From a virus: a DNA stretch of 45,217 bases. The notes under the pieces are model-generated. The model was not told the DNA's origin and did no database searches. It was given only the letters and a program-made list of their open reading frames with translations. Location of the stretch: the IMG/VR virus record IMGVR_UViG_3300037297_000118, positions 1 to 45,217 of that record; one strand, written 5' to 3'. Positions 2,031 through 45,217 of this stretch are shown in pieces. Every line of letters starts with the position of its first letter. Position 1 is the stretch's first letter. A program made the translations under genes and the position numbers.

Positions 2031-2050
2031 AAGTATCAGATGCACCTTGA

Positions 2051-2084
2051 AACAGGGGATTTTGAAAATCCCCTGTTTTTTTAT
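2051..2084 (+). terminator. Rho-independent terminator closing the first operon
   Basis: 13-bp arms AACAGGGGATTTT (2051-2063) and AAAATCCCCTGTT (2065-2077), so the loop forms by opening the innermost A-T pairs. A T-run at 2076-2082 follows. It sits 20 nt after the stop codon at 2030. Confidence 0.9.
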
Positions 2085-2086
2085 TT

Positions 2087-2148
2087 AAAACCTTGCACGT
2101 GAAGGCATCACCACGGCATTTTCTAAAGCAAGTTGATACTTGGATACC
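2087..2148 (+). promoter_or_regulatory. Bipartite upstream element, copy 1
   Basis: Two blocks: AAAACCTTGCACGTGAAGG (2087-2105) and TGATACTTGGATACC (2134-2148), 28 bp apart. The same two blocks with the same 28-bp gap occur on the minus strand at 33711-33650. In both cases the second block ends exactly 57 bp before a -10-like hexamer (here TATATT, 2206-2211). The sequence between the blocks is not conserved, so this looks like selected spacing rather than recent duplication. Likely an activator-binding region or a structured RNA leader. Confidence 0.7.
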
Positions 2149-2182
2149 ACCCAAATCAAGCATAAAATTTTTTCTGAAAATC

Positions 2183-2211
2183 TGGATATCTGCAAAAAAC
2201 CGTGCTATATT
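2183..2211 (+). promoter_or_regulatory. Promoter downstream of bipartite element, copy 1
   Basis: Extended -10 TGC-TATATT (2203-2211) with a poor -35 (TGGATA, 2183-2188) at 17 bp. The weak -35 plus the conserved upstream element suggests activator dependence. It would drive the gene at 2244. Confidence 0.5.
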
Positions 2212-2243: not shown

Positions 2244-2399
2244 ATGACAAGAAAAGATTATGAATGGTTTGCTGATCTGATTGGGGTGTATCAGAAAGAA
2301 TTGCCTTGGAAGTTTGTACAGGAAATTGAAGATTATTTTGAAGCTGCTAACCCTAAATTTGATCGGGAAAAGTTTGAAAAAAGAATAGAATTAGATTGA
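2244..2399 (+). CDS. Small acidic helical protein
   Basis: 51 aa (MTRKDYEWFADLIGVYQKEL at the start), rich in acidic and aromatic residues and predicted helical. AAGGAG lies 8 nt upstream of the ATG. It is alone in its transcription unit, with a bipartite element and promoter upstream and a terminator hairpin from 2427. The opening resembles short phage proteins of the pattern YE.FA..I, but I cannot name a function. The tight regulatory framing argues that it is a real gene. Confidence 0.7.
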   Translation: MTRKDYEWFADLIGVYQKELPWKFVQEIEDYFEAANPKFDREKFEKRIELD

Positions 2400-2914: not shown

Positions 2915-2934
2915 AGCTGCACGGTTTACCTTGC

Positions 2935-2964
2935 AAAATCCCCTGGAAACAGGGGATTTTTTTT
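2935..2964 (+). terminator. Rho-independent terminator before the packaging genes
   Basis: Stem AAAATCCCCTG (2935-2945), loop GAAA and CAGGGGATTTT (2950-2960), followed by TTTT. The arms have the same sequence as those of the terminator at 2051-2077 but in swapped order. Confidence 0.9.
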
Positions 2965-2965
2965 A

Positions 2966-2994
2966 TTGACAATTTAATTTAAATCTGGTACTGT
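2966..2994 (+). promoter_or_regulatory. Promoter for the packaging and head genes
   Basis: TTGACA (2966-2971), 17-bp spacer and extended -10 TGG-TACTGT (2986-2994), directly after the terminator at 2935. It would give a leader of about 60 nt before TerS at 3061. It is the best promoter candidate seen for the long rightward morphogenesis operon. Confidence 0.65.
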
Positions 2995-3060
2995 TTAATA
3001 AATCCCATCTTCTAAATTCATTTTTAATTTATTACAACCTGCAATAATGGGCTATACTAA

Positions 3061-9524: not shown

Positions 9525-9878
9525 ATGGATTTTTACGGAGATAAAACACAAATACTTGCTGAAGATTCAGCAGTAAATGCAACACAAGTTGTTTATACTG
9601 TACCCGCAGGGAAACGGTTTTATTTAATTTCATCTGATCTTGATACAGATGCAGGTGCAGTTGGTATTGTATCTGCTGTAATTCAAGATGGAACACCAAC
9701 AATTCAAAAATATATTAATCAAATTAGAGTTGGTGCAACAGCACAAGTAATTCATATGGATCATTCACCTTTGAATTATCCTATTGAAATCCCTGCTGGT
9801 TGGGAAATTGCAGTAATTAGTGATACTGCTTTATTGACTGGTACACTGTCAATTTTTGGATTTGAAACAAACGCATAA
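9525..9878 (+). CDS. Unknown beta-rich virion protein
   Basis: 117 aa. The whole protein reads as beta strands (TQVVYTVPAGKRFYLISSDL, YPIEIPAGWEIAVIS), like a jelly-roll or immunoglobulin-like sandwich. AAGGAG precedes the ATG. It lies among head completion genes, with the next gene starting inside its stop codon (TAATG). It could be a head fibre or decoration protein, but no family is recognised. Confidence 0.6.
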   Translation: MDFYGDKTQILAEDSAVNATQVVYTVPAGKRFYLISSDLDTDAGAVGIVSAVIQDGTPTIQKYINQIRVGATAQVIHMDHSPLNYPIEIPAGWEIAVISDTALLTGTLSIFGFETNA

Positions 9879-10852
9879 TGTCAAATTTTGGTGGTCCTAA
9901 TAGTGCATTTGAAAAAGATTTTGCTTTAAGATTTCAAAGCTTGTCAAAGAAACTAACAAAGCTTGAAACATCTTTGCAGAAACTATTGGTATCATCAATT
10001 AATGGAGCAAAAGCAAGTATTGGATATTGGAAAGCAATTGAAGCTGAAATGAATTATATCTATGCACAAATGATTGCCCAATTTGATACATGGTCGTTAC
10101 AGCAAATCCCAAAAAGGTATAAAAATAGTCTATATACAATTAATCAAAGAATAAAAAGAAATAAATCAATTCTTGCAATTGGAAAAAGAACTACAACAGC
10201 ATTATGGAATAGTAATGCTTCAAGGCAAATCGTAAATGCATTATATAAAGATGCAGCAGATTCTTTTGCTTCTGCTGCATTATCAGGAAAAAGAAATATA
10301 CAACGATTATTAAGGCAAACACAACAGGCATTAATTAATGAAGGATTAGTTGATATTACTGTTGCTGTTGGTTTTGAAATGGGTGATTTAAGAAAAGCAG
10401 CAGATGCTTTATCTGGTGGTTTGTGGTCTGCACTTGATGAAGCTGTACAAAATAAACAATTTGTGCAAGCTGGAAGATATAAATATAAACCTGATTATTA
10501 TGCTGAATTGGTTGCACGAACAAAATTTCATGATGCACATACACAAGCAGCACTTGCACAAGCAAGAAATTATGAAACTGATTTAGTGCAGGTTTCTTCC
10601 CATAATACTACAACACGAATTTGTATGCCATTTGAAGGGAAAATATTTTCTGTATCTGGAAATGATAATAGATTCCCACCTTTAAATGATTCACCACCTT
10701 ATCACCCGAATTGTTTGCATTTAATTTATCCTACATTTATAGAAGCTTTGGAAGCTTCAAAACAATTAGATTCATTTTCAGCTTTTAGTAAAGGTGATAT
10801 AGAAAAACCACCTGCACCTGCTGGTTTTATTCCAGTAGGGCAAAGGGCATAA
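9878..10852 (+). CDS. Minor capsid / head morphogenesis protein
   Basis: 324 aa. It is mainly helical, then carries the C-terminal signature of phage minor capsid protein 2 or Mu gpF-type proteins: TRICMPFEGKIFSVSG, then FPPLNDSPPYHPNCLHLI. The conserved Cys and His in that segment could bind zinc. Such proteins attach to the portal or internal head and may be ejected with DNA. It starts inside the previous stop codon (TAATG), so translation is coupled. Confidence 0.75.
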   Translation: MSNFGGPNSAFEKDFALRFQSLSKKLTKLETSLQKLLVSSINGAKASIGYWKAIEAEMNYIYAQMIAQFDTWSLQQIPKRYKNSLYTINQRIKRNKSILAIGKRTTTALWNSNASRQIVNALYKDAADSFASAALSGKRNIQRLLRQTQQALINEGLVDITVAVGFEMGDLRKAADALSGGLWSALDEAVQNKQFVQAGRYKYKPDYYAELVARTKFHDAHTQAALAQARNYETDLVQVSSHNTTTRICMPFEGKIFSVSGNDNRFPPLNDSPPYHPNCLHLIYPTFIEALEASKQLDSFSAFSKGDIEKPPAPAGFIPVGQRA

Positions 10853-10853
10853 T

Positions 10854-11180
10854 ATGCAGATTTATTTTACTGATGAAGTTATGATTTATAATAATTCTAC
10901 TGATCCAAATTTTAGAACTAAAACAGTTTTAAATTCTTTTGAATCAAAAGCATATATAGAAGAAAATAGTGAAATTAAATATAATGCAACTGGACAACCT
11001 ATTGATCCTGAAGTTTGGGTTTTTCTTCCACCAAATACAGAAATTCATTTAGGGGATGATATAGAAATTATTAAATTTCATGGGAATGATCCGACAGCAC
11101 AAGAATCAGGAAGGCGTCAAGTAAAAAGAATACATAAAGCAGGTGCATTTAAACAATCACATTTGGAAGTATTGATTTAA
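10854..11180 (+). CDS. Head closure or head-tail connector protein (probable)
   Basis: 108 aa, beta-rich with a pattern WVFLPPNTEIHLGDDIEIIKFHG and HLEVLI at the end that fits head-closure (stopper) proteins, which are small beta barrels. Position three genes after the capsid and before a tail completion protein supports it. The ATG lies 1 nt after the previous stop and the next gene overlaps its stop by 1 nt. Confidence 0.55.
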   Translation: MQIYFTDEVMIYNNSTDPNFRTKTVLNSFESKAYIEENSEIKYNATGQPIDPEVWVFLPPNTEIHLGDDIEIIKFHGNDPTAQESGRRQVKRIHKAGAFKQSHLEVLI

Positions 11181-19462: not shown

Positions 19463-21217
19463 ATGGGCATTAAAATGTCTGGATTAGATGAACAATTAAA
19501 TGTTAATGATGATGATATTTTTCATTTAAGAACATCTGGTGGATTAGATAAAAAAATTACTGCACCCAATTTAAAAATAGGTTTAGATGTTGCTGGTAGG
19601 GTTGTCGGTCCTGCTGTAACATTAACTGGTGCTGTTAGTAGGGGTGATCCTATTTTTAGATTACATCAAAAATTTGGTACTGGTTCAGATTTTGCTTTTA
19701 GAACAATAATTCCTGGTGTAAATATTTTAGCTGGTCCTGATTATGGTGCATCTGGTTTTTATATCGGTGCAGATTTTTATGCAGTTTGTTATATTGATGT
19801 TCCAACAGCAACATGGGAATATAAATTAAGAATTTATGAACATAATTTTAATCAAACAGCTTTTACTTTGCGTGGTTCTGGTGTTGATATTTTTACTGCT
19901 TCAAGTAATTATCCGTTTTTTATGGGTGGTGGTTATTTACGTGATGTAGATTCAAATACAATTGAATTTTGTATTGTGATTGCAGAAGATTCTACAACAT
20001 ATAAAAGAATTTATACTTATCGTTTAAATAAAACAACTTATGTTGTAACACAAGTTGGTTCATTTCATGAAATGGATGATTATTGGTCAGCTTCAAATAA
20101 TTCTTATGCACGAACAGCAGCAGATGGTTCAGAAGAATTATATTGTTTTTATAATATTGTAGCATCAAATAATAGATTTAGGGTTTATCATTCAAATAGG
20201 GATGGTACATATACTGAAAGGGGAACATTTTTACAGTATAGTGAATCCCATAATTTTCAAGATTGTGGAATTCCATTTAAAGTTGATGGTAAATATATTT
20301 TCGGTTATTCCTATGGAGCAGCAAATATAATACAAACTGGTTATGATCCAATAACCTATGCTAAAACAGAACAAATAAAAGCGCCTATATTAAATTATTT
20401 TGGTACAAATCAATATCCAACAAAAACACATTTTAATACATCCCCAATAGGTTATGATTATTCAAATAGAACTGATGATTATGATTTTACTATTGCACGT
20501 ACTTTTGGTAATGTAATTGGTCCTGGTTTGATTCTTTTAATTTATGCTGCTTCTGCTGTTGCAACTGATTCTGAAGCACCTTATTGGATGCAAGTTTTTA
20601 AATATGATGCAGTACTTGATTTTTGGCAACCTGCAAGTAATCCTGTATCAATTGCATCATTAACAGATAATGTTTCACAAGGAAATATTGCAAAAGTATT
20701 TTTATTGACAAACGGTTTAATTTTAATTGATTGGGTTGCATTTAGTTCTATTGATACGGGTGCTGCTTCTGTACAAAACCGTGAAGCTTATGTTATGTCA
20801 TTTCAAAATGGATTTTTGCAATTGATATGGAGGGGTTTAATTCGTGCACCTTTGGATGGTTCACAAGCAAGGCGTGGTATTTCTGGTGATTTAACTTTTG
20901 ATGGTAGATATTATGTTGCTGGAAATACTGGAAATGCGGATATACCTTTTCATGGTTTACTTTATATGTCAGAACTTTTAGGTTTTGCTGATCGTGATTA
21001 TTCAATTAGTGAATCTGTAAATCCTGTTATTAAGGGTGCAATAACTGGAATGTCAAATTTAATTGCTGGTGTTCCTTATGGATGGGATGTTAATATTGGA
21101 GCAATAAAACCATATTATACTGGTGGTTTAAATGTTGCAAAAGCAATTTCTGATTCTATTTTAGAAGTTGATGTACCAACTTCTAAATATGAATGGATTT
21201 GTATTGATGAAAGGTGA
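19463..21217 (+). CDS. Receptor-binding protein / tail fibre 1
   Basis: 584 aa. Residues 1-43 form an adaptor shared with the proteins at 21373 and 22220: DIFHLRTSGGLDKKIT followed by NLKIGL. The middle is beta-rich with repeated short strands separated by G/D turns, compatible with a propeller or sandwich. The C-terminal 90 residues (VIKGAITGMSNLIAGVPYGW) resemble phage fibre end domains. AAGGAG precedes the ATG. The shared adaptor suggests that these proteins occupy the same docking site on the tail tip. Confidence 0.7.
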   Translation: MGIKMSGLDEQLNVNDDDIFHLRTSGGLDKKITAPNLKIGLDVAGRVVGPAVTLTGAVSRGDPIFRLHQKFGTGSDFAFRTIIPGVNILAGPDYGASGFYIGADFYAVCYIDVPTATWEYKLRIYEHNFNQTAFTLRGSGVDIFTASSNYPFFMGGGYLRDVDSNTIEFCIVIAEDSTTYKRIYTYRLNKTTYVVTQVGSFHEMDDYWSASNNSYARTAADGSEELYCFYNIVASNNRFRVYHSNRDGTYTERGTFLQYSESHNFQDCGIPFKVDGKYIFGYSYGAANIIQTGYDPITYAKTEQIKAPILNYFGTNQYPTKTHFNTSPIGYDYSNRTDDYDFTIARTFGNVIGPGLILLIYAASAVATDSEAPYWMQVFKYDAVLDFWQPASNPVSIASLTDNVSQGNIAKVFLLTNGLILIDWVAFSSIDTGAASVQNREAYVMSFQNGFLQLIWRGLIRAPLDGSQARRGISGDLTFDGRYYVAGNTGNADIPFHGLLYMSELLGFADRDYSISESVNPVIKGAITGMSNLIAGVPYGWDVNIGAIKPYYTGGLNVAKAISDSILEVDVPTSKYEWICIDER

Positions 21218-26923: not shown

Positions 26924-29900
26924 TTGGGTAAAATAAAACCACCAGTATTAACATCTTCACGTATTTGTGATGCTTCACGTGTAGCTATTGCTGCTGATGA
27001 TACACCAGTAAAAAAACAGAATTGGGAAAATGAATTTATTTTATGTACTCAAATTGAAGATGATGGTAATGCATGGTCTGCTGCTTATAAATTAAGATTC
27101 AGAGATAAAACTGCTGCTGGTGCTTTTGCTGATGTTGGATCAGCAACAGCTATTAGATGGGGAACAGGTACAGTTTTAGTTGATGGTGCAACATTAACAC
27201 AAGCAAATAGTAGATGTACAAATAATCCAGGTAGCATTTGGCAAGATGGTTTAGAAAATGAAGGGGATAATTTATTACCAGATACAGGAACATATGCTTT
27301 AGGTGGAGCAAACTATACAGAATTTCAGTGGGCGCTTGATCCTACTGGTGTTATTCTTTGCCATGAATATGAATTTGAATTATATGATGTAACAAATGGT
27401 GCTGCAATTGGTACTTGTGTTGCAACATGGTCAAGTTTTATTTTGCATTATGTAAATACTGGTTCAACTCCTGGTGGAACTGGTAAAACAAATGCGACAA
27501 CTGGAACTGATAGGGCATTTGCAAGCACTTCAGAATGGGAAGCAGCAGCAGATGAAGATTTAGTTGCTGCTGGTTGTGGAAATTCACAATTATATTTAGA
27601 TGGTGGTCAAGAGGAATATAAAACTTCAACAGGTGCAATTGTAATTTCTGGTTGGAATACTGATCAAGATAATAAAATTGAAATTTTAGGTGGTTATCCT
27701 TTAGGAAATGGAAGGCATGATAATACATTTAAAACTGATAGACATAGATACAGATGGACAGTTGACACAACTACTGCACCACCTAACGGTTTATTTGATA
27801 TTGAACTTGCATTAGATGATGCTGTTGAATTTTCATTTATGCAGGTTGAATTTAATATAACTGCAAACTTTGGTGCAAATACTGTTAGAGTAATTGATCA
27901 ATTTAATAATGATGAATTAGGTTTTTTCTGGTATCATAATAATTTGGTTAAAGGTGATTTTGATACTTCACCTGGTTATGGTGATGTAATTCCCCAAAGG
28001 CATTTAAATTTAACTCATATTGTAACAGGACCATCAGGACAAAGTGCTGCAAAAGCTTATATTTATAACAATATTATTTATTTACCAAATCAAGATTCTA
28101 TTGGTCGAAATGGTGGTGGTTTTTATTTTTACGCAAATGATACAGGTTTAGAAGTATGGTGTTATTATAATACAGTAATTGGTGGTACATATGGTATTGT
28201 TGTTTTTGCTGTAAATTCACTTGCAACTGATTTGCAAGTACATTTAAAAAATAATTTAGTTGCTTATCAATATCTTGGTGCTTTAAATGAAGTAAATCCA
28301 AATGGTGTTGCAACAGATAGTGATTATAATACAACTGATGATTCATCTTTTTCTGGTGGTGCAAATGATAAAGTAAATCAAACTTTTGATTTTGAAAATG
28401 AAAGTGCAAAAAATTACCGTTTAACTTGTTATGATCGTGGTGCACAATATTCAGCAGTTGATGTTTCAGCAGATACTAATTTACCTGTTGATGATGATGG
28501 TAAAGGACAATCCCCACGATCAGATTATCCTGATTGTGGAGCAGATGAAGAATATCATTTATGTGTAACATTTGAAGATACTGTTGGTATTACAGATGTA
28601 TTAACAAGAATTTTAAATGCAGTTAGATTAATTGCTGATACAATTGGAATAACAGATGTATTAACAAGAATCGGTACATTTTTTAGATCAATAGCCGATA
28701 CTGTTGGAATAACAGATTTATTAACAGCAGTTAAAGTTGGTGCAGCAAAGTTTGCTTCCCTTGCTGATACTGTTGGAATTACAGATACAGTTGCAAGAAA
28801 AAAAGGTGCAATTAGATCAATAGCAGATAATGTTGGGATAACTGATACTGTAAATAGAATTGGTTCATTCTTTAGAACTATAGCAGATAATGTTGGGATA
28901 ACTGATACTGTAAATAGAATTGGTTCATTCTTTAGAACTATAACCGATACAGTTGGAAGTACAGATTTACTTGCAAGATCATTAGTTTATTTTAGATCAA
29001 TTGCTGATACAGTTGGAATTACCGATACTGTTGCAACAGTAAAAGGTGCATTTAGATCAATAGCTGATACAGTTGGAATTACTGATTTACTTGCAAGATC
29101 AAAAGGTGCTATTCGTTCAATATCTGATACTGTTGGAATAACAGATACTTTAAATAGAATTGGTTCATTTTTTAGATCAATAGCCGATACAGTTGGAAGT
29201 ACAGATTTACTTGCTGCTTCTAAAATGGTTTTTGTTTCCCTTGCTGATACTGTTGGAATAACAGATTTAATTACAACTGCAAAAGGTGCAGTTAGATCAA
29301 TAGCCGATACAGTAAATATTACAGATACATTAACAAGAATTGCTTCATTCTTTAGATCAGTTTCTGATACTGTTGGAATTACTGATACTGTTGCAAGAAT
29401 AGGTACATTTTTTAGAACTATAACAGATACCGAAAATATTACAGATACACTTGCTGCTATAACTAAACTTGTTAGATCAATTTCTGATACTGTTGGAATT
29501 ACTGATACAATTACAAGAGTAGGTACATTTTTTAGAACAATAACAGATACCGAAAATATTACAGATACATTAACAAGAATAGGTTCATTCTTTAGAACTG
29601 TAGCCGATACAGTTGGAATTACAGATGTATTAACAGCAGTTAAAGTTGGTGCAGCAAAGTTTGCTTCCCTTGCTGATACTGTTGGAATTACAGATACAAT
29701 TACAACAGCAAGAAATATTATTAAATCAATTTCTGATACAGTTGGAATTACAGATGTATTAACAGCAGCTAAAAAAGTATTTGTTTCTTTAGCAGATACA
29801 GTTGGTATTACTGATATAATCACAAGATCAAAAGGTGCAGTTAGATCAATAACGGATACTGTAAATATAACAGATACTTTAACAAAAATAGTTTCTTTTG

Positions 29901-30394
29901 TTCGATCAATAACTGATACTGTAAATATAACAGATACTTTAACAAGAATAGGTACATTTTTTAGAACAATAACAGATACCGAAAATATTACAGATGCATT
30001 AACAGTAACTAAAAAAATACTTGTTTCCCTTGCTGATACTGTAGGCATAACGGATATATTGACAAGATCAAAAAAAGGAGTTAGAATAGTTGCCGATACA
30101 GTTGGAATTACAGATTTAATTACAAGATCAAAAGGTGCAGTTAGATCAATAATTGATACTGTTAATATTTCAGATACAATTTCAACAATTAGAACTATTA
30201 TAGTTCAACTTGCTGATACTGTTGGAATAACAGATGTTTTAAATGCTTTTGTTAGTTTACCACCTAAAATATTTGAAGGCATTTCAAATATTGTAACTTT
30301 TACTTCTGCTGGTATTTCGACAATATCAAAAAGTATTATTGAATTTATTTCAAATATCTTTACTAAATATGATGGGGGTGATTCAGAATTATGA
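26924..30394 (+). CDS. Large repeat fibre / surface adhesin
   Basis: 1156 aa from TTG at 26924, with AAGGTGG 5 nt upstream. Residues 1-540 are a beta-rich globular part that includes a possible beta helix (GYGDVIPQRHLNLTHIVTGP-like steps). From about residue 550 to 1107 there are about 28 repeats of roughly 20 residues with core DTVGITD followed by a hydrophobic, Arg-containing half. Such repeats probably stack as a rod holding a tip. Some neighbouring repeats are identical at the DNA level. Function as a long tail fibre or cell-surface adhesin is inferred. Confidence 0.65.
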   Translation: MGKIKPPVLTSSRICDASRVAIAADDTPVKKQNWENEFILCTQIEDDGNAWSAAYKLRFRDKTAAGAFADVGSATAIRWGTGTVLVDGATLTQANSRCTNNPGSIWQDGLENEGDNLLPDTGTYALGGANYTEFQWALDPTGVILCHEYEFELYDVTNGAAIGTCVATWSSFILHYVNTGSTPGGTGKTNATTGTDRAFASTSEWEAAADEDLVAAGCGNSQLYLDGGQEEYKTSTGAIVISGWNTDQDNKIEILGGYPLGNGRHDNTFKTDRHRYRWTVDTTTAPPNGLFDIELALDDAVEFSFMQVEFNITANFGANTVRVIDQFNNDELGFFWYHNNLVKGDFDTSPGYGDVIPQRHLNLTHIVTGPSGQSAAKAYIYNNIIYLPNQDSIGRNGGGFYFYANDTGLEVWCYYNTVIGGTYGIVVFAVNSLATDLQVHLKNNLVAYQYLGALNEVNPNGVATDSDYNTTDDSSFSGGANDKVNQTFDFENESAKNYRLTCYDRGAQYSAVDVSADTNLPVDDDGKGQSPRSDYPDCGADEEYHLCVTFEDTVGITDVLTRILNAVRLIADTIGITDVLTRIGTFFRSIADTVGITDLLTAVKVGAAKFASLADTVGITDTVARKKGAIRSIADNVGITDTVNRIGSFFRTIADNVGITDTVNRIGSFFRTITDTVGSTDLLARSLVYFRSIADTVGITDTVATVKGAFRSIADTVGITDLLARSKGAIRSISDTVGITDTLNRIGSFFRSIADTVGSTDLLAASKMVFVSLADTVGITDLITTAKGAVRSIADTVNITDTLTRIASFFRSVSDTVGITDTVARIGTFFRTITDTENITDTLAAITKLVRSISDTVGITDTITRVGTFFRTITDTENITDTLTRIGSFFRTVADTVGITDVLTAVKVGAAKFASLADTVGITDTITTARNIIKSISDTVGITDVLTAAKKVFVSLADTVGITDIITRSKGAVRSITDTVNITDTLTKIVSFVRSITDTVNITDTLTRIGTFFRTITDTENITDALTVTKKILVSLADTVGITDILTRSKKGVRIVADTVGITDLITRSKGAVRSIIDTVNISDTISTIRTIIVQLADTVGITDVLNAFVSLPPKIFEGISNIVTFTSAGISTISKSIIEFISNIFTKYDGGDSEL
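28573..30245 (+). repeat. Coding tandem repeat array, about 28 units of ~60 bp
   Basis: Each unit encodes about 20 residues with the core (A/S/T)DTVGITD. A 62-bp stretch from 28821 recurs perfectly 60 bp later, and about 70 bp near 28721 recur near 29627. Insertion or loss of units would change rod length in frame. Confidence 0.9.
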
Positions 30395-31362: not shown

Positions 31363-31788
31363 ATTAATAACTTTATAATCATTATCTAAAACACCAACAA
31401 TATCTTCTGCATCAACATCTTTTAGAAATTGTGCATACTTTGCTTTTTTTATAAATGTTTCTTGTGTATAGCTTCTTTCTATGTTTTTATTTTTAAAGAT
31501 AAATAAAGATGAATCAATAGATATAAATAAAAAAGCATTTCCACCCATAGCAACATAATTTTTAATCCAATTTAATTGCCCTGGTCGAAAAGGGATTTTA
31601 ATTTTTTTCTGTTCTAATTTTATTGGGTGTTGTATTACTTTAAATTCAATCCATCCATCAGTTTGTGTTGTCCTAAAAAATAAATCTGGTATTCCTACAC
31701 CCGTCATAGGTGATTCTATGCGTTGAACAAATATCCCTGAAAATTGCAGCAATTTAATTATCTTTCTTGATAATTCTGTTTCTTTCAT
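31354..31788 (-). CDS. VRR-NUC family nuclease
   Basis: 144 aa. The N-terminal helix (ETELSRKIIKLLQFSG) is followed by a compact PD-(D/E)XK core: GVGIPDLFF (Asp), then GWIEFKV (E-F-K) and RPGQLNWI. That is the VRR-NUC layout found as stand-alone phage nucleases, likely acting on branched DNA such as Holliday junctions or replication forks. It overlaps the DNA polymerase 3' end by 35 nt and so belongs to the replication operon. The rightward operon ends in it (convergent). Confidence 0.8.
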   Translation of the reverse strand: MKETELSRKIIKLLQFSGIFVQRIESPMTGVGIPDLFFRTTQTDGWIEFKVIQHPIKLEQKKIKIPFRPGQLNWIKNYVAMGGNAFLFISIDSSLFIFKNKNIERSYTQETFIKKAKYAQFLKDVDAEDIVGVLDNDYKVINLI

Positions 31789-33559
31789 GCTTTGTATACC
31801 CCTTTACATTTGCCCAATTTGTACCAATTTCTGCATCAACCTTTACAGGTACTTTTAATTTTATAGCTGTTTCCATTATATATTTCATTTCTTCAAAAGC
31901 TTCAAACCCTTCATCAGTTACAGGAATACTAACATCTAATTCATCATGTACTGTCAAATGGGGATGTAAAACATCAAATATTCCAGCTTTGTAATTGTCA
32001 AGCATAGCTTTCTTCATTAAATCTGCTGCTGAACCTTGAATTAATCGAGCAAACATTATATAAGCTTTCTTTTTATCAAGTAATCTGTTTCTTCTGTTTA
32101 AAATAGTTTTAATATATCCTCTTCTTTGGGCTACACTACTAACAGCTTGCATAGTTGCCTTTATATATGGTGCTTTATTATGGTAAACATCTAAAATTTC
32201 ATAACAGTATTTTAACGGCCAATTAAAAAATTGTGACATAAACCTTGCACCCATCCCATAACCAACACCGAAATTTAAATTTTTACTTTTCTTTCTATCT
32301 AATTTGGTTAAATCCATAATGTATTGATGATAATCAGTATCAGGGTTTTCAATATAAGTTTGTCTTAATTCTTCTGATCCTTTACCCCTTGCATAATGGG
32401 CTATGATCCTGTACTCAATTTGTGAATAATCACATTTACCCCAAATGCAACCTTCAAAGGGTATAAAAATTTCCCTGCACAATTTACCATATTCTTCTTC
32501 TGCTGGTATTTGTTGCAAGTTTGGATCGGAACAACTTAACCTTCCTGATCTTGCACCAAAATCATCAACCCTTGTATTATGATAATTTGGGTGAATTAAT
32601 TCATTTATTACATATCTTTCTAAACTTCCCATTAAAAATGTATTTACTGTTTTATGTGCTTTCCTGTATTCATGGATCATTTTTACAATAGAATATTGAT
32701 CTTCATATTTTCTAAAGAAATATTGATCTATGTTTGGGTTTCCTTTTTCTGTTAAAGGGTATTCAATCCCTTTTCTATCTAAAGCTTGTGCAACTTGTTT
32801 ACCACTATTGGGATTAAAATTTTCCCAAAATTCATCCCATAAGAAAAATTTAATTTTTTCATATTGATCTTGTAACTGTTTGGCATTTAATTCCCTTTTA
32901 TGATGATCAACTTTTGCACCTGTTTTTCTAAACAATAACAAACATCTAATTAATTCAGATTCCATTTCAAATAGATGATTTAATTCTTCTTTAACAAGAA
33001 TTGAATTTTGTTTTTCTAATATATCAATTGGTAGTTTTGCGTCTATCTTTCCATATTTAGATACAAGGGATGCAGGCATTTTAAACAACCAATTTCGTGC
33101 ATCCCCTGCTAAATTATTATCTTTACAAAATTGATAAATTTCTTCTGTATATTTTGTATAATCTAAATACTTTTTTGCAATATAATCTAAATTATATGTT
33201 CCCTGGTTTTCATCAATTAAAGCTTCAGCAATTTGAACATCAAGTATTTTACCCTTAACAGGAATTTTTAAAAAGTTTTCGATCCAATCAATATCATAAA
33301 TGATATTTGCACCAACTTTGGGAACATGGTTTTTAAATGTATCACGTAAATATTTTAGATTCTTTTGCTTTTCTGCTGGTTGTATATCAGTATGCCCTAT
33401 ATTGTAATACTCATTAAAACCGTTTTTGGTTGCAAGGGATATACCTAATACATAACCATCATCACGGAAAACACCTGTACCTAACTTTTTTAAATTAGGA
33501 TCATAGGTTTCTATGTCAAACCCTAAAATTGGTTCATTTCTCAAATCTGGATATTTCAT
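31754..33559 (-). CDS. Family A DNA polymerase with 3'-5' exonuclease
   Basis: 601 aa. Exonuclease: FDIETYD (residues 14-20), IIYDIDWIENF (86-96) and KYGKIDA (168-174). Polymerase: motif A CDYSQIEYR (376-384), O-helix RKKSKNLNFGVGYG (422-435) and motif C VHDEL (537-541). The Phe at 430 in the O-helix is the standard non-Tyr form. No 5'-3' exonuclease domain. It probably replicates the phage genome with the nearby primase and helicases. AAGGAG and a TATAAT-like box lie upstream, about 90 nt after a bipartite element. Confidence 0.95.
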   Translation of the reverse strand: MKYPDLRNEPILGFDIETYDPNLKKLGTGVFRDDGYVLGISLATKNGFNEYYNIGHTDIQPAEKQKNLKYLRDTFKNHVPKVGANIIYDIDWIENFLKIPVKGKILDVQIAEALIDENQGTYNLDYIAKKYLDYTKYTEEIYQFCKDNNLAGDARNWLFKMPASLVSKYGKIDAKLPIDILEKQNSILVKEELNHLFEMESELIRCLLLFRKTGAKVDHHKRELNAKQLQDQYEKIKFFLWDEFWENFNPNSGKQVAQALDRKGIEYPLTEKGNPNIDQYFFRKYEDQYSIVKMIHEYRKAHKTVNTFLMGSLERYVINELIHPNYHNTRVDDFGARSGRLSCSDPNLQQIPAEEEYGKLCREIFIPFEGCIWGKCDYSQIEYRIIAHYARGKGSEELRQTYIENPDTDYHQYIMDLTKLDRKKSKNLNFGVGYGMGARFMSQFFNWPLKYCYEILDVYHNKAPYIKATMQAVSSVAQRRGYIKTILNRRNRLLDKKKAYIMFARLIQGSAADLMKKAMLDNYKAGIFDVLHPHLTVHDELDVSIPVTDEGFEAFEEMKYIMETAIKLKVPVKVDAEIGTNWANVKGYTKHERNRIIKKDN

Positions 33560-33586
33560 GCTTCATAACTCCTTATAGTATATAGA

Positions 33587-33592
33587 ATTATA
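33587..33592 (-). promoter_or_regulatory. -10 box (TATAAT) of the polymerase promoter
   Basis: TATAAT on the minus strand, with no convincing -35, exactly 57 bp downstream of the second block of the bipartite element. The same 57-bp distance holds at the other copy. The poor -35 suggests activation from the upstream element. Confidence 0.5.
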
Positions 33593-33649
33593 GATCTATT
33601 TTCATACCTTTAACGTGGTGGGGTGTAGGATCGACGCAAAATCAAAAAA

Positions 33650-33711
33650 GGTATCCAAGTATCACCTATGCCCAAAAGATCGCTTCTACACCCCTTCACG
33701 TGCAAGGTTTT
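33650..33711 (-). promoter_or_regulatory. Bipartite upstream element, copy 2
   Basis: Read on the minus strand: AAAACCTTGCACGTGAAGG (33711-33693), 28 bp, then TGATACTTGGATACC (33664-33650). Both blocks and their spacing are identical to 2087-2148. It lies between the helicase stop (33725) and the polymerase start (33559). A 9-bp inverted repeat GGGGTGTAG/CTACACCCC brackets the second block here but is absent in copy 1. Confidence 0.7.
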
Positions 33712-35123: not shown

Positions 35124-36722
35124 TTAAAATTCCTTTTCTGGATCAAAGTTGGCAACAAATTCTTTTTGTTCTGCTGTTGTCATTAATTTAAAATCTTTTA
35201 ATCCTAAACACCAAACACGAATTTGTTGCCTTGTTTCTGTTTTAATCTTTTTTGGTTTAGCACCTACTCTTGTTAATTCCCTATGTATTTCAGTTGTAGA
35301 AAAATCTCTAAAATTTTTCTGGTGAAAAAATTCTACTAAATCAAATGATCTAAAATAATATTCTTGATATGGTTTATCAAAGTAAACACGTTTATTTAGT
35401 ATTTGATCTTTATTGTTTGCCATAGCTCTATTAGTTAAAAAATCTATGAAGTAGTTTCTAAATATACTGTATGGGGAAATATCATCTTCTTTATTAACAT
35501 GAATAATTTCTATTTCTTCTAAATGCTGATTAACAAGTTTAAACCATTCAACTTGCTTCATTTTAACAGGTAAAGTATGCAGTTCTCTAAAACACAATCT
35601 AAGAAAAACATCTTGTTTAATAATTTCATCTTCATTTCTGAAGGATAATCTTTTAAATGCACCTGAATTAGATTGTGCTTTTACTTCCCATTCATAATAG
35701 GGTAACTCTGTTTGTATCTGGTAAAGCTTTCCAAATTCAATATTAGAAAAATACCCACCCATTTTACCAATACCGAATTTTCTTGTTTTACAGATTGTTC
35801 TATTACAGAAATCGACACAAGGGGAATCAAAGCACTTGTAAATATAATCTTTCTTTCTTAGGGAAGAAAGCACGGTTTTTTCTAATTCATTTTCATCTAA
35901 TGGTGCTTCTAATTCATTATTTATCACTAATACTTTTTGCTCAAAAAAATGTTCATCTTGTTTTTTGAAGTAAACACCAAAAGAAAAAAGATAATTATTT
36001 CTTCCTGAATTTTTGCGTAAAGGATTTAAAAGGTAAATAGTTTGTAAACAGGGTGGACCATCAAAGAAAGGAATATTATCAAGAAAAGCTTTTATATCAT
36101 AAATAGAAATTATTTTAGATTTAATATAGGTAAGTGCATCACCTAAGCTTAATTTTTTACCATTTTTAATTGCATATTGTTGTGTATCATCTGCATTAAA
36201 ATATGGTAGGTTTATCCAAGTACCAATATTATCTGCTGCTAATTTTGTTTGTTTAGGAAATATTTCTAAAACCCTATTTAATTGTTTTTGTATTAATAAA
36301 TCCAATCCTAAAAGGATTGCCATTTTTTCAAGATAAATTCTAACATTTTTAACATCAGCATATTTTGATAAAAATAAATATAAATGTAAACCACCTGATT
36401 TTGATCTAAAAGGAACTAAAGGGAAATTATGTTTTTCAATTGCTTCAAGATATGTTGAAAGATTTTTACTATAAATGTCTATGTCTATAACAGCAAATTT
36501 ACACTGATTTTTTTTATTAATAGGAATAACACCCAATCCAATTTTTCCATCTAAATGTGCTTTATATTGTGTTTGGGTTAGCAGTTTTTCCTTTATTGTA
36601 TAACTTTCACCAGCTTCTTTTTCACCTTTTTTAGAAGTAAATTTATATTTGTGTTGCCCATAGTTTTGTTTATTACCTTCAAAGATTTGTTGAAATTCAG
36701 TTAGATAGAGTTTTTTGTCCAC
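35124..36722 (-). CDS. Archaeo-eukaryotic primase (AEP, TOTE-like)
   Basis: 532 aa from GTG at 36722 with AAGG 7 nt upstream. The AEP catalytic core is clear: FAVIDIDIYS (metal-binding Asp 80 and 82) and FRSKSGGLHLYLFL (105-118), the SG.H.Y nucleotide site. A cysteine cluster near 303-318 (CFDSPCVDFCNRTICKTR) suggests a zinc or iron-sulfur element, as in primase accessory regions. The C-terminal third is helical. It makes primers for phage replication. The stop is 1 nt before the helicase start. Confidence 0.85.
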   Translation of the reverse strand: MDKKLYLTEFQQIFEGNKQNYGQHKYKFTSKKGEKEAGESYTIKEKLLTQTQYKAHLDGKIGLGVIPINKKNQCKFAVIDIDIYSKNLSTYLEAIEKHNFPLVPFRSKSGGLHLYLFLSKYADVKNVRIYLEKMAILLGLDLLIQKQLNRVLEIFPKQTKLAADNIGTWINLPYFNADDTQQYAIKNGKKLSLGDALTYIKSKIISIYDIKAFLDNIPFFDGPPCLQTIYLLNPLRKNSGRNNYLFSFGVYFKKQDEHFFEQKVLVINNELEAPLDENELEKTVLSSLRKKDYIYKCFDSPCVDFCNRTICKTRKFGIGKMGGYFSNIEFGKLYQIQTELPYYEWEVKAQSNSGAFKRLSFRNEDEIIKQDVFLRLCFRELHTLPVKMKQVEWFKLVNQHLEEIEIIHVNKEDDISPYSIFRNYFIDFLTNRAMANNKDQILNKRVYFDKPYQEYYFRSFDLVEFFHQKNFRDFSTTEIHRELTRVGAKPKKIKTETRQQIRVWCLGLKDFKLMTTAEQKEFVANFDPEKEF

Positions 36723-37561: not shown

Positions 37562-38143
37562 TTATTTTAATATAGTTTTGTGGAAGGTAAAAATTTTAGC
37601 AAAAGTTTCAATTAACTCCTTTCTGACATACTTACCAGATTTTAAACCATCTTCAATATCTGGTTTGTCAATTCCAAGTAATTCTTTAAAATATTTTTTC
37701 TTTGTTTGTGTATGTACATCTTTTTTGCTGTCAAAATCATATTCATTTGTCATTAGAAAAGTAAATAAATCTTCAACTTTGCTGCTTTCCATTTTCCCAA
37801 AATCAAAATGAAGTTTAACAATATCATCTTCTTTTCTTGATTCAAGAAAAGTAAAGAATTGTTCAGCATCTTTAATTGTTACAGATATATCATCTTTAAC
37901 AATTACTTTTTCACCTGTAGCTAATTTGATTTCTGATAAACCAAAATTTGCAAGTAGTTCTGGAATCATAACACCACTGTATTCATTAAATAATTTTTTC
38001 TGTCCAGCAAGTTTTTCTTCTAATGTTTCAATTGATGTTTTTAATTCCTTATAAATTGCAACATAGCTTTGTAGTTTATCTAATGCATCATTTGATATTT
38101 CTTCATTTAAGTTTTTCAAAAATTCAGGTGTTGCTTTTTCCAT
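37562..38143 (-). CDS. Early phage protein with coiled coil and beta domain
   Basis: 193 aa from ATG at 38143 (AAGGA upstream); a longer start would add a stretch of Lys/Arg with no better ribosome site. A coiled coil (NDALDKLQSYVAIYKELKTS, LEEKLAGQK) is followed by IKLATGEKVIVKDDISVTIK, a beta hairpin pattern of a common early phage family of unknown role, often near SSB or recombination genes. Overlaps the Csx16-like gene by 20 nt. Confidence 0.6.
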   Translation of the reverse strand: MEKATPEFLKNLNEEISNDALDKLQSYVAIYKELKTSIETLEEKLAGQKKLFNEYSGVMIPELLANFGLSEIKLATGEKVIVKDDISVTIKDAEQFFTFLESRKEDDIVKLHFDFGKMESSKVEDLFTFLMTNEYDFDSKKDVHTQTKKKYFKELLGIDKPDIEDGLKSGKYVRKELIETFAKIFTFHKTILK

Positions 38144-38465
38144 TTTCTTTTTCCTTTTTCTCCTTTTTTTCTTCCTCTTCAAATGAAGTTTGCCTTATAA
38201 TGTAGGTTTTAGGTTCACTTGCATAAAAACGTATTTCTTCTAAAGTTAATTCTGTACCACGTTTTTCACTTGGTATTCTTAATTGAACTTCAGTGAATTT
38301 TGCAGTATGGCAAGCTAACCAATAAGGCAAAACACCTAACACATGCTTGTTTCTAACATCATCAGCATTTGCATGTGTAATAATTTTGGTTTTATCATCT
38401 ATAAGTTTTAATTCTTTTAGATAATCAACCAAACTTTTGTACCTTGTTACAACTAATTTTTCCAA
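38124..38465 (-). CDS. csx16: Csx16-like protein (CRISPR ring nuclease family), candidate anti-CRISPR
   Basis: 113 aa from TTG at 38465, with AAGGAG 9 nt upstream. The sequence follows the Csx16 (VVA1548) pattern: VVTRYK at the N-terminus, HANADDV (31-37), LGVLPYWLA (43-51), LRIPSEKRGTELTLEE (62-77) and TYIIR (87-91). An added charged tail (FEEEEKKEKKEKENG) is not typical. Csx16 occurs with type III CRISPR, where relatives degrade cyclic oligoadenylate. No cas genes or repeats occur here, so a phage copy would more likely switch off host type III signalling. Family match is from recall. Confidence 0.75.
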   Translation of the reverse strand: MEKLVVTRYKSLVDYLKELKLIDDKTKIITHANADDVRNKHVLGVLPYWLACHTAKFTEVQLRIPSEKRGTELTLEEIRFYASEPKTYIIRQTSFEEEEKKEKKEKENGKSNT

Positions 38466-41667: not shown

Positions 41668-43225
41668 CAGCTAAAATATCCCCTAAAGAATTTGATTTGA
41701 AAAAATCATTTAAATCTTTTCCTTCAGATAAAACTTTAAAAACTTTTTCATCAATTGTATTTTTTGCAATTATATCTTTATAAACACAAATTGATTTTTG
41801 ACCGATCCTATGTGATCTATCTTCAGCTTGTAAACGGTTTTCAGTTCTAAATGAATTGGAAAAGAAATATTGCATACTTGAATTTTGCAGATTTAACCCG
41901 AAACCTGCTGTTGAAGGATTGCCAATAAATATTTGAAAATCACCAGCTTTAAATTCTTTTATAATCTGTTCCCTTTGATACTTGCCTGTTTTACCATAAT
42001 ACAATCTACAAGAATAATCTTTTTTTAATTCATTATATAATAGTTCTAACTCTTTAACAAATTGCGCCCAAATTATAACTTGTCCATTTGTTTCTTCTAA
42101 ATCTTCTTTTAATCTTTCAAGCTTTGGGTTTACTTTTCCAATTGACATTATTTTTTGTGAACCATCTTCTTTATATGGAAAGAAACCACCACAAATCTGC
42201 ATTAATCGAGTTGTCAAACTTATTTTATTAACAACAGATAATTCTTTATTTGCGTATTGTGCTAAAAGTTGTGTTCTAAGATTTTTGTAAACTTTCTTTT
42301 GTTCAGGTGTTAATTCAATATAGATATGTTCATAAATCTTTTCAGGTAAATCTAAACATTCTTCTTTGGTAATTGAAAAAATATCATCTTCAATATATTG
42401 TTTTAATTCATCTATTCTTTTGAATCTTGTAAATTGATCTTGTGAAGCAATAAATTTAACATTTGCTTCTGATATTCCCATGATAGTTGCAACAGCTTCA
42501 TAATCATTATCTGTTTCTTTTAATTTATATTTAACAGTATTAAATGCTTTTTCATCAATTAAAGTATGATAGTTTGCACCTGTATAATGATTAGTACCCT
42601 TTTGCAGTATTCCATATCTATGTTGAAATATAAAATAGTTGCATTTAAAATAATCAGCTTTTAAAAATTCAAATTGACTCCATAAATCAAAAGGTGATTT
42701 AGCTGTTGGTGTTCCTGTAAGAATTGCCCTATGTCCATATTTATTTAAACGGTGAATTATTTGTGATCGTTTTGCTTTGGGTGTTTTTATTCTGGTAGAT
42801 TCATCAACAATTGTGAATACATCATGATTGTGTACTAATTCGGAAATAACAGGGATGATTGGTTTGCCTTGAAATGCTTCTACATTACAAGCAAAGATTT
42901 TTAATTTATCTGTTTCTGAAATCAGAAAATCATTTAAACGATTCTTTCTATATACAGCACTCATTTTTGAAGTTTCCCAAACAAAAGCTGTATATGGAAT
43001 AGAACAGTGTATTGGCAATTGCTCATGAATCCACTGGTGATGTACATGGTTAGGTGCAATAATTAATACTGCACTAATATCACCTTTTTTAAATTTGTAT
43101 TCAGCAATTTTAATTGCTATTCTTGTTTTGCCTGTTCCCATATCACAAAACAAGGCAAAGAATTCTTTTTCTTTAAATTTTTCAATTGCTTCATCTTGAT
43201 GTTGGTAATTTTTAATTTGATTCAT
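41654..43225 (-). CDS. SNF2-like superfamily 2 ATPase
   Basis: 523 aa. Motifs: Q-rich YQHQDEAIEKF, P-loop CDMGTGKTRIAIKI (27-40), TIVDESTRIK in place of the DEAH box, ILTGTPTAKSPFDLWSQF, then the second domain (QVIIWAQFVKELELLYNELK, IGNPSTAGFGLNLQNSS, RSHRIGQ). This is the phage SNF2/DEAD family found in replication regions. It translocates on double-stranded DNA or removes proteins and may help at the origin. ATGA-coupled to the zinc-ribbon gene upstream. Confidence 0.85.
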   Translation of the reverse strand: MNQIKNYQHQDEAIEKFKEKEFFALFCDMGTGKTRIAIKIAEYKFKKGDISAVLIIAPNHVHHQWIHEQLPIHCSIPYTAFVWETSKMSAVYRKNRLNDFLISETDKLKIFACNVEAFQGKPIIPVISELVHNHDVFTIVDESTRIKTPKAKRSQIIHRLNKYGHRAILTGTPTAKSPFDLWSQFEFLKADYFKCNYFIFQHRYGILQKGTNHYTGANYHTLIDEKAFNTVKYKLKETDNDYEAVATIMGISEANVKFIASQDQFTRFKRIDELKQYIEDDIFSITKEECLDLPEKIYEHIYIELTPEQKKVYKNLRTQLLAQYANKELSVVNKISLTTRLMQICGGFFPYKEDGSQKIMSIGKVNPKLERLKEDLEETNGQVIIWAQFVKELELLYNELKKDYSCRLYYGKTGKYQREQIIKEFKAGDFQIFIGNPSTAGFGLNLQNSSMQYFFSNSFRTENRLQAEDRSHRIGQKSICVYKDIIAKNTIDEKVFKVLSEGKDLNDFFKSNSLGDILADGAD

Positions 43226-44217: not shown

Positions 44218-44361
44218 TTAATTTAGAAAAATTAAAAATTGATGAAACTCTAAACAGAAAATTTCATCAATTAATATTGCAATACTAATTAATTCAACTG
44301 AACACATATTATTTGGTTCAAAACACAAAACACCATGCTTTGCATTTAATTCTATAATCAC
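44218..44361 (-). CDS. Possible 47-aa hydrophobic protein
   Basis: 47 aa from GTG at 44361 in a GTGA overlap with the previous stop, with AAGG 7 nt upstream. The C-terminal half is hydrophobic (ELISIAILIDEIF, FLIFLN). The last third coincides with an inverted repeat that could be a terminator, so this may be non-coding structure rather than a gene. Confidence 0.4.
   Translation of the reverse strand: MIIELNAKHGVLCFEPNNMCSVELISIAILIDEIFCLEFHQFLIFLN
44230..44272 (-). terminator. AT-rich hairpin with T tract, possible terminator
   Basis: 11-bp arms AATTGATGAAA and TTTCATCAATT (minus strand 44272-44262 and 44247-44237), 14-nt loop, followed by TTTTTAATTTTTC. Weakly stable because it is AT-rich; may attenuate the early transcript after the helix-turn-helix gene. 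Confidence 0.45.
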
Positions 44362-44612
44362 GCAAAAACCTTTTCACCTGATTCTGTATAATGGTATGGA
44401 TCGCCTAACCTACCATCAGTAAAAGGAAATTCAGTTACTTCAGATGCATGTATCATGATCATTCTATCAAGCTTTACACCTTTAAGCTTTCTGATTTTAT
44501 TTCCGTTATGAAATAAATATCTAATTGTATGTTCTGATCTTTTAACGAGTTTAGAAAATTGTTTGGTGGTGTAGCAGGGTATGCCATTAATTTCAATTGT
44601 TTGGTTATTCAT
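44358..44612 (-). CDS. Small helix-turn-helix DNA-binding protein
   Basis: 84 aa. Residues 12-60 (YTTKQFSKLVKRSEHTIRYL, then a GNKIRKLKGVKLDRMIMIHA wing) follow the MerR/excisionase-type winged HTH layout: strand, helix-turn-helix, then a positively charged wing. Second gene of the leftward arm, after a strong promoter with repeated CCCTATAC sites, so it may be the repressor or activator for that control region. ATGA-coupled. Confidence 0.7.
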   Translation of the reverse strand: MNNQTIEINGIPCYTTKQFSKLVKRSEHTIRYLFHNGNKIRKLKGVKLDRMIMIHASEVTEFPFTDGRLGDPYHYTESGEKVFA

Positions 44613-44797: not shown

Positions 44798-44830
44798 ACA
44801 GTATAGGGTAATATGCTGTCAAGTATAGGG
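44785..44830 (-). promoter_or_regulatory. Operator repeats around the early promoter
   Basis: CCCTATAC occurs at 44830-44823 and 44808-44801 (minus strand), a 22-bp repeat, two helical turns, lying just upstream of the -35 and within the spacer. A diverged copy GCTATACG follows at 44792-44785. Likely binding sites for a phage repressor, perhaps the nearby helix-turn-helix protein. Confidence 0.6.
44793..44822 (-). promoter_or_regulatory. Promoter of the leftward (early) arm
   Basis: On the minus strand: TTGACA (44822-44817), 18-bp spacer and TATGAT (44798-44793). It is the strongest consensus match in the window and faces the replication arm. Its transcript would start near 44786. Confidence 0.7.
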
Positions 44831-44869
44831 TGGGAAAGATTTAAAAAAATTTCGTGAATTTCACGATTT
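44831..44869. other. Spacer between early promoter and heptamer array
   Basis: AT-rich sequence containing TTTCGTGAATTTCACGA, a near-perfect small inverted repeat (TCGTGAA/TTCACGA). It may be another operator. No gene is seen. Confidence 0.4.
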
Positions 44870-45199
44870 GGGTACATCTATAAGGGTACAGGTGTACCCA
44901 CGGTTTTTAGGGTTAATTCCTTATCCTGTAACGAATAACCCTTGATTTTGGTGGGGTAAACATTTGTTAAGAAGTGTACCCAAGGTGTACCCAAGTTTAT
45001 TCTTTATACTGTAAGTAATTAACTCATTTTGGGTACACTGGGTACACTGGGTACACCAATTTTTTTTTCACCTGTTGAATAATAGGGTGCTTTTTTTAGA
45101 TGGTCCTGGTGTACCCACTGTACCCACTGTACCCATTTTCAGCTAATTGTATATTGTGTATATAGTTATATTGGGTACACTTTGGGTACAGTGGGTACA
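44870..45199. repeat. GGGTACA iteron cluster, candidate replication origin or operator array
   Basis: Fourteen GGGTACA or TGTACCC heptamers. Forward copies start at 44870, 44884, 45031, 45040, 45049, 45173, 45184 and 45193. Reverse copies start at 44893, 44975, 44986, 45110, 45119 and 45128. The two triplets at 45031-45057 and 45108-45134 have 9-bp periodicity and form an inverted repeat with 27-bp arms (two mismatches) around a 50-bp spacer. An AT-rich stretch follows at 45135-45172. The cluster sits between the divergent arms, as expected of an origin or a shared operator. Function is inferred; no initiator gene was identified. Confidence 0.7.
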
Positions 45200-45217
45200 C
45201 TTGTTTTCTATCGGTGA
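45035..45217. repeat. Right copy of terminal direct repeat
   Basis: Same sequence and orientation as positions 1-183, with one base difference. It sets the non-redundant genome length at about 45,034 bp and shows that the two non-coding ends form one continuous intergenic region. Confidence 0.95.

Follow-up and report, generated by a model that had tools for sequence, protein, structure and literature searches.

Two short sequence blocks that recur as an exact pair on opposite strands of a phage genome, at the same distance from each other and from a −10-like hexamer, raise the question of what kind of signal they form. The window in which they lie, i.e., the whole stretch of DNA analysed here, is a 45,217-base virus record, the initial 183 bp of which are repeated at its end. 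Its gene content points to a tailed phage as the source: it encodes a terminase (PF04466), a family A DNA polymerase (PF00476, E 8.6e-62; 31754–33559, minus strand), a UvrD/Dda-like helicase, an SNF2-type helicase and an AEP-type primase (35124–36722; AEP-TOTE PF22548, E 8.3e-15, together with PriCT_1). The genome ends (44798–45217 and 1–183) carry dense GGGTACA/TGTACCC repeats in both orientations, along with long inverted repeats spanning the ends, and are a candidate origin or packaging region.

The element is formed by two exact blocks of 19 bp and 15 bp, with one pair on each strand and both pairs intergenic. In copy 1, on the plus strand, block 1 (AAAACCTTGCACGTGAAGG, featuring a CCTT-N7-AAGG dyad) spans 2087–2105, block 2 (TGATACTTGGATACC, a GATAC-TTG-GATAC direct repeat) spans 2134–2148, and a −10-like TATATT is found at 2206–2211. 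Copy 2, on the minus strand, has block 1 at 33693–33711, block 2 at 33650–33664 and a −10-like TATAAT at 33587–33592. The placement of these exact matches on opposite strands agrees with the preliminary description of the locus, and recomputation confirmed its interblock gap of 28 nt and distance of 57 nt to the −10 hexamer in both copies. The same description gave a start-to-start distance of 43 bp, or about four helical turns; this value requires block 1 to be cut back to the 15-bp dyad CCTTGCACGTGAAGG, whereas the blocks as written give 47 bp (~4.5 turns).

Several statistics set this arrangement apart from background. First, when up to three mismatches are allowed, the expected number of block-1 occurrences in a shuffled genome is 0.03; two were found, both exact. 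Apart from the two full elements, the whole 45 kb has just one more exact half-site. Second, the identity of the filler between the copies is near chance, with 10 of 28 positions matching in the gap (expected 6.4, sd 2.2), in keeping with the divergence noted earlier, and 12 of 57 downstream (expected 15.3). Third, the probability that the two copies jointly reach a −10 score of 11/12 or better at an equal offset is P=0.003. We rejected, by inspection, two further readings of the blocks. They share a reading frame in both copies, but the frame of copy 2 runs for only ~31 codons and lacks a ribosome site, and the filler disagrees. On the reverse strand, block 1 could be read as a weak terminator after a guide-like filler, and no conserved promoter accompanies it.

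Copy 1 lies directly downstream of an intrinsic terminator (2049–2079, plus strand), comprising a stem-loop followed by a T run. It is followed by a putative promoter (2183–2211, plus strand; consensus match only), which combines a moderate TGGATA and a 17-nt spacer with a TGC-extended TATATT. Thus, the proposal that both promoters lack a good −35 is half right, as it fails for copy 1. Downstream are a 51-aa ORF to which no function could be assigned (2244–2399, plus strand) and the terminator that ends its unit (2426–2452). The terminase unit follows a third terminator at 2935–2960 and, judged by eye, has its own TTGACA-17-TACTGT promoter (read within 2915–3060). The left-end promoters (203–256, 2168–2221 and 2396–2425) have a common extended −10 context, and two of them share TTAATTGTATC downstream. 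Copy 2 occupies the 165-bp gap between the helicase and polymerase genes, both of which point leftward. Given these settings, one between a terminator and a promoter and the other in the helicase–polymerase gap, both copies lie in likely promoter regions.

Copy 2 has a further feature that was missed in the preliminary description: a third half-site, ACCTTTAACGTG (33606–33617, plus strand), which is an inverted version of the block-1 half-site ACCTTNNACGTG and ends 13 bp upstream of the −10, i.e., at the −35 position. Its probability of arising by chance in the shuffled gap is P=0.00035. The two block-1 half-sites form the ends of an inverted repeat of 103 nt (ACCTTgcACGTGaaGGGGTGTAG .. CTACACCCCacCACGTtaAAGGT; 33606–33708, minus strand) with block 2 near its centre, which scores 19.8 vs 8.1 (sd 1.1) for shuffles and is the strongest among 54 related UvrD-pol regions. 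Copy 2 folds well, both as RNA (z −3.4) and as a single-strand DNA hairpin (z −3.1). Such a fold could be that of a structured RNA, for instance, a transcribed intergenic hairpin of the RNase III-type processing or mRNA-stabilizing kind, or an antitermination RNA like HK022 put, a reading that we regard as unlikely. Copy 1 has no inverted third half-site and no fold above that of shuffled sequence (z 0.00), and it lies after a terminator and before its own −10. As it has neither the third half-site nor the inverted repeat, the conserved leader RNA that had been suggested finds no support. Further, the loops of an RNA do not require exact constant spacing.

The element is confined to a single phage among the sequences that we searched directly. 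Exact and gapped scans of public viral contigs recovered it solely from this phage's own contigs, which are at least 99.9% identical, the rest being chance matches in coding DNA, and no relative of intermediate identity, from about 70% to 99.9%, turned up. A DNA search of cultured phages yielded nothing above chance. A 17-mer scan of 84,980 bacterial and archaeal genomes returned 29 matches, against ~30 expected for random sequence by our own estimate, nearly all of them within open frames and without the second block or nearby repeats. As these matches are at chance level and isolated, there is no sign of a host operator or a CRISPR repeat, and we rejected both.

One near-identical strain differs from the window by four transitions within 33540–33656, which represent four of its eight differences over 8.75 kb. 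One of these falls inside block 2 of copy 2, converting TTGGATACC to TTAGATACC; block 2 is therefore not absolutely invariant. Another changes a G-C pair of the long stem to G-U, a substitution that would be congenial to a structured RNA. Transition clusters between near-identical strains were seen at 33540–33656, on copy 2, and at 2711–2821, and may reflect local recombination or selection. The clustering around copy 2, together with the existence of only two copies, is compatible with the element being a duplication by-product, in which recombination or a mobile sequence made a second copy of one intergenic region, too recently for the blocks to have diverged. We consider this very improbable: chance-level filler between perfect blocks is unlike neutral decay, and neither ends nor a transposase were seen.

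We then turned to the wider phage group. A helicase alignment search gave 80 loci, and the same gp34-primase-UvrD-polymerase module recurs at many of them; a terminase 57–69% identical to that of the window is also present in 7 of the 27 records searched for it. A scan of these relatives for intergenic repeat pairs detected multi-block elements of their own: genomes G001, G016, G019 and G022 each have one with two GTCAWTGAC-type boxes. Box 2 lies 67 bp after box 1 in seven elements (G001 and G019) and 68 bp after it in three (G022), and much of the sequence between the boxes is diverged in these three genomes. These elements are found upstream of pol and of terminase, the places of window copies 2 and 1, respectively. 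G001, G019 and G022 have further ones on the far side of pol, at the early unit's convergent end or adjoining it. In G019, two identical copies of at least 121 bp, each with a GTCAWTGAC element, flank pol (L238 18406 and L239 1666; genome positions 38406 and 41666), which indicates that such regions do get copied, as a duplication would have it. The analogous elements at the same loci in relatives speak against that origin.

The kinship between the window element and those of its relatives is one of layout. A sequence model, R1, built from 11 elements (ten from G001, G019 and G022 and one from G002), detected two further elements, in G016 and L143, with E about 1e-6. The window was absent from its results in a search of 1.07 Mb at E<=10, and the two window stretches searched alone gave only partial matches of 6.2 and 2.7 bits. 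As R1 does not find the window, the link to the relatives is one of position and plan, without proven descent. We also tried, and set aside, a homology between block 2 and the relatives' central TGATATTCGTATAT motif: the 10 of 15 positions matched by eye are expected by chance over so many positions, and the model does not support it. Other relatives have repeats of different kinds in the gap before pol: long inverted repeats with arms of unrelated sequence in L160, L147, L161 and L170, and direct repeats in G027 and G029. This plan is not universal, as many of the UvrD-pol regions examined lack such a repeat. Together, the window element and the signals of like build but other sequence that some distant relatives carry at the same two places point to a fast-changing control element.

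Some repeats of the related records merit separate mention. CTGTRTG-type words are repeated upstream of pol, at the place of window copy 2, in L249 and L248-L250 (G027; near record positions 20081 and 34450) and in L224 (G029; 9878–10027). The long inverted repeats of L144 (8965–9037), L146 (~2674–2795), L147 (5867–5941) and L160 (~11026–11126) share GAAAG(T/C)(C/T)T just before the 3′ arm and possibly constitute a separate hairpin class. L133 (G001) has an intergenic 24- to 26-bp inverted repeat, ATAACTCTATAAATTGATTGACGA, at record positions 42861–42972, with a third copy nearby.

The relatives also bear on the association with promoters. Of 11 elements, six have a −10-like hexamer starting 10–14 bp past their second box, against an expectation of 1.1: window copy 2, three elements of G019 and a single one in each of G022 and G016. 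The range was picked post hoc, which the P of 0.008 takes into account, since every 5-wide range was scanned. When a single fixed offset across the relatives' entire element was tested, the −10 association was not significant (P 0.13). The remaining 5 of the 11 elements have no −10 at 10–14 bp, and those at the convergent junction of G001 and G022 lack it. The lack of a −10 at these junctions may indicate a role beyond that of a promoter part.

The relatives contribute to the case for a structured RNA as well. Their elements fold far above shuffles, with z down to −8.9 and a mean of −3.2; the arms of L160, L147, L161 and L170 remain complementary despite their unrelated sequences; the central stems of G022 differ in sequence while keeping their pairing; and the elements of G001, G019 and G022 are oriented along early transcription. 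However, inverted pairs of protein sites also yield complementary arms, and arms that change in step between phages are thus not decisive. The mean fold z is equal on the two strands (−3.18 and −3.00), and G.U non-pairs show no excess over A.C ones (14 vs 12, with coding-DNA repeats among those counted). Nor does Rfam lend support: no match in the window reaches the gathering score, relaxed thresholds bring up only terminator-like or chance matches, and the loci of eight relatives have none except a tRNA.

The positions of the relatives' elements, which adjoin pol and divergent or convergent junctions regardless of promoters, also bear on a role in DNA replication. The element could be a single-strand initiation site for the AEP-type primase, as are ssiA and ssiB of RSF1010, or some other part of an origin; the primase of this genome has a PriCT domain, the window has one copy per strand as RSF1010 has of ssiA and ssiB (PMC4434180), and copy 2 has the hairpin potential as single-strand DNA noted above. 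Nevertheless, we deem this role unlikely, slightly more so than a structured RNA: G001, G019 and G022 each carry all their copies on a single strand, single-strand DNA folds reveal no hairpin common to both window copies, and both the in-register −10 and its counterpart in the relatives would have to be coincidence.

The explanation that we place first, though tentatively and at a little below even likelihood, is control of transcription at the DNA level, with the blocks serving as binding sites of a phage-specific transcription regulator; it is founded on two copies in one species and on the analogous plan in relatives. It is favoured by the position of copy 1 between a terminator and a promoter. 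Further, the boxes of G022 are palindromes of identical sequence, the pairing of which would include an A.A mismatch; protein sites would look like this, rather than a stem. Against DNA-level control are those elements of G001 and G022 that sit where the early and late units converge, a place at which one would not expect a promoter, and the strong hairpins into which copy 2 and several relatives fold. Under DNA-level control, the dyad of block 1 and block 2 would be bound by a phage-encoded regulator or complex acting on the host RNA polymerase, and the two promoters so controlled would be that of the DNA polymerase gene (copy 2) and that of the short unit preceding the terminase genes (copy 1). 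In copy 2, the inverted half-site 13 bp from the −10 would replace the −35 in the manner of a T4 MotA box, with the bound protein recruiting or redirecting the polymerase; copy 1 would keep the upstream sites and rely on a moderate −35 and an extended −10.

We infer protein binding, activation rather than repression, and a phage-encoded regulator from sequence data. The preliminary description, which envisaged a phage-specific activator or a structured leader RNA, is upheld in part. A phage-specific promoter-control element is supported by the intergenic location directly before promoters, the in-register −10, the third half-site, the elements of some relatives and the −10 link in 6 of 11 elements; for the activator itself, no binding protein was identified. 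No regulator gene stood out in the window, and the two candidates have low-confidence structure models: a 147-aa protein (2477–2911; mean pLDDT 43) without a homologue in the phage collection, and an 84-aa HTH_17-like protein (44358–44612; mean pLDDT 49) that falls below the Pfam cut-off.

A broader version, which we rate as unlikely, extends DNA-level control to the entire clade of phages with the AEP-primase/UvrD/PolA module. These would possess a rapidly re-specified multi-box promoter element, in which the boxes vary while the spacing within a phage is preserved, as are the positions (before pol, before terminase and, in some phages, where the early unit ends). A phage factor would take over the host RNA polymerase in place of the −35, in a system akin to T4 middle transcription but of separate origin, diversifying as immunity specificities do. 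If so, an uncultured phage clade has its gene switch at this element, and these related phages offer a natural series in which DNA-binding specificity was repeatedly rewritten with position and spacing kept. The regulator could then be sought as the gene that varies in sequence in step with the boxes.

A short literature search found no description of such an element. The nearest known kinds appear to be the T4 middle promoters, the L5-type operator/stoperator sets and HK022 put RNA, none of which it fits fully. In T4 middle promoters, the MotA box, with the consensus (a/t)(a/t)(a/t)TGCTTtA, lies 12±1 bp from the −10 and replaces the −35 (PMC2988021). Likewise, copy 2 has a box where the −35 would be, 13 bp from a −10 of host type, and five elements of relatives have one at 10–14 bp. 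In contrast, copy 1 has TGGATA in that space, the site of copy 2 reads CACGTTAAAGGT in the sense strand, which is no MotA box sequence, the window has extra upstream blocks at a fixed distance, and the box sequence varies between related phages. A Pfam scan of 20 window proteins gave no match to MotA or AsiA. The element may, by analogy, work like a MotA-type promoter without being one.

The L5-type operators and stoperators of cluster A mycobacteriophages (PMC6550527) are similar in that their sites are specific to the phage, mostly keep one orientation with respect to transcription and differ in sequence between related phages. However, they are many single asymmetric sites, whereas here there are two to four multi-block elements per genome, and no repressor was identified for the window element. 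The putL/putR RNAs of HK022 form two stem-loops, are transcribed from early promoters and suppress termination (PMC9378689). They resemble the window element in having two copies per genome on opposite strands, each of about 70–100 nt, and copy 2 forms a hairpin; unlike them, copy 1 is without a comparable fold and stands between a terminator and its own −10, and the two window copies have no two-stem architecture in common. With RSF1010 ssiA/ssiB (PMC4434180), the window shares one copy per strand and an AEP-fold primase in the same genome, and differs in having no hairpin common to both copies, in the several copies on one strand in three relatives and in the promoter association.

Two other proteins of the window deserve mention. 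A 1156-aa protein (26924–30394, plus strand) contains many tandem 20-residue repeats of the ADTVGITD.. type, with a DNA period of 60 nt. A 113-aa protein (38124–38465, minus strand) matches PF09652 (Cas_VVA1548, Csx16) in Pfam with E 3.5e-13, though it falls under the NCBIfam cut-off. Csx16 is a cA4-specific ring nuclease, present in only 2 of 28,114 phage genomes (PMC12409355), and the Csx16-like protein of the window could counter type III CRISPR signalling.
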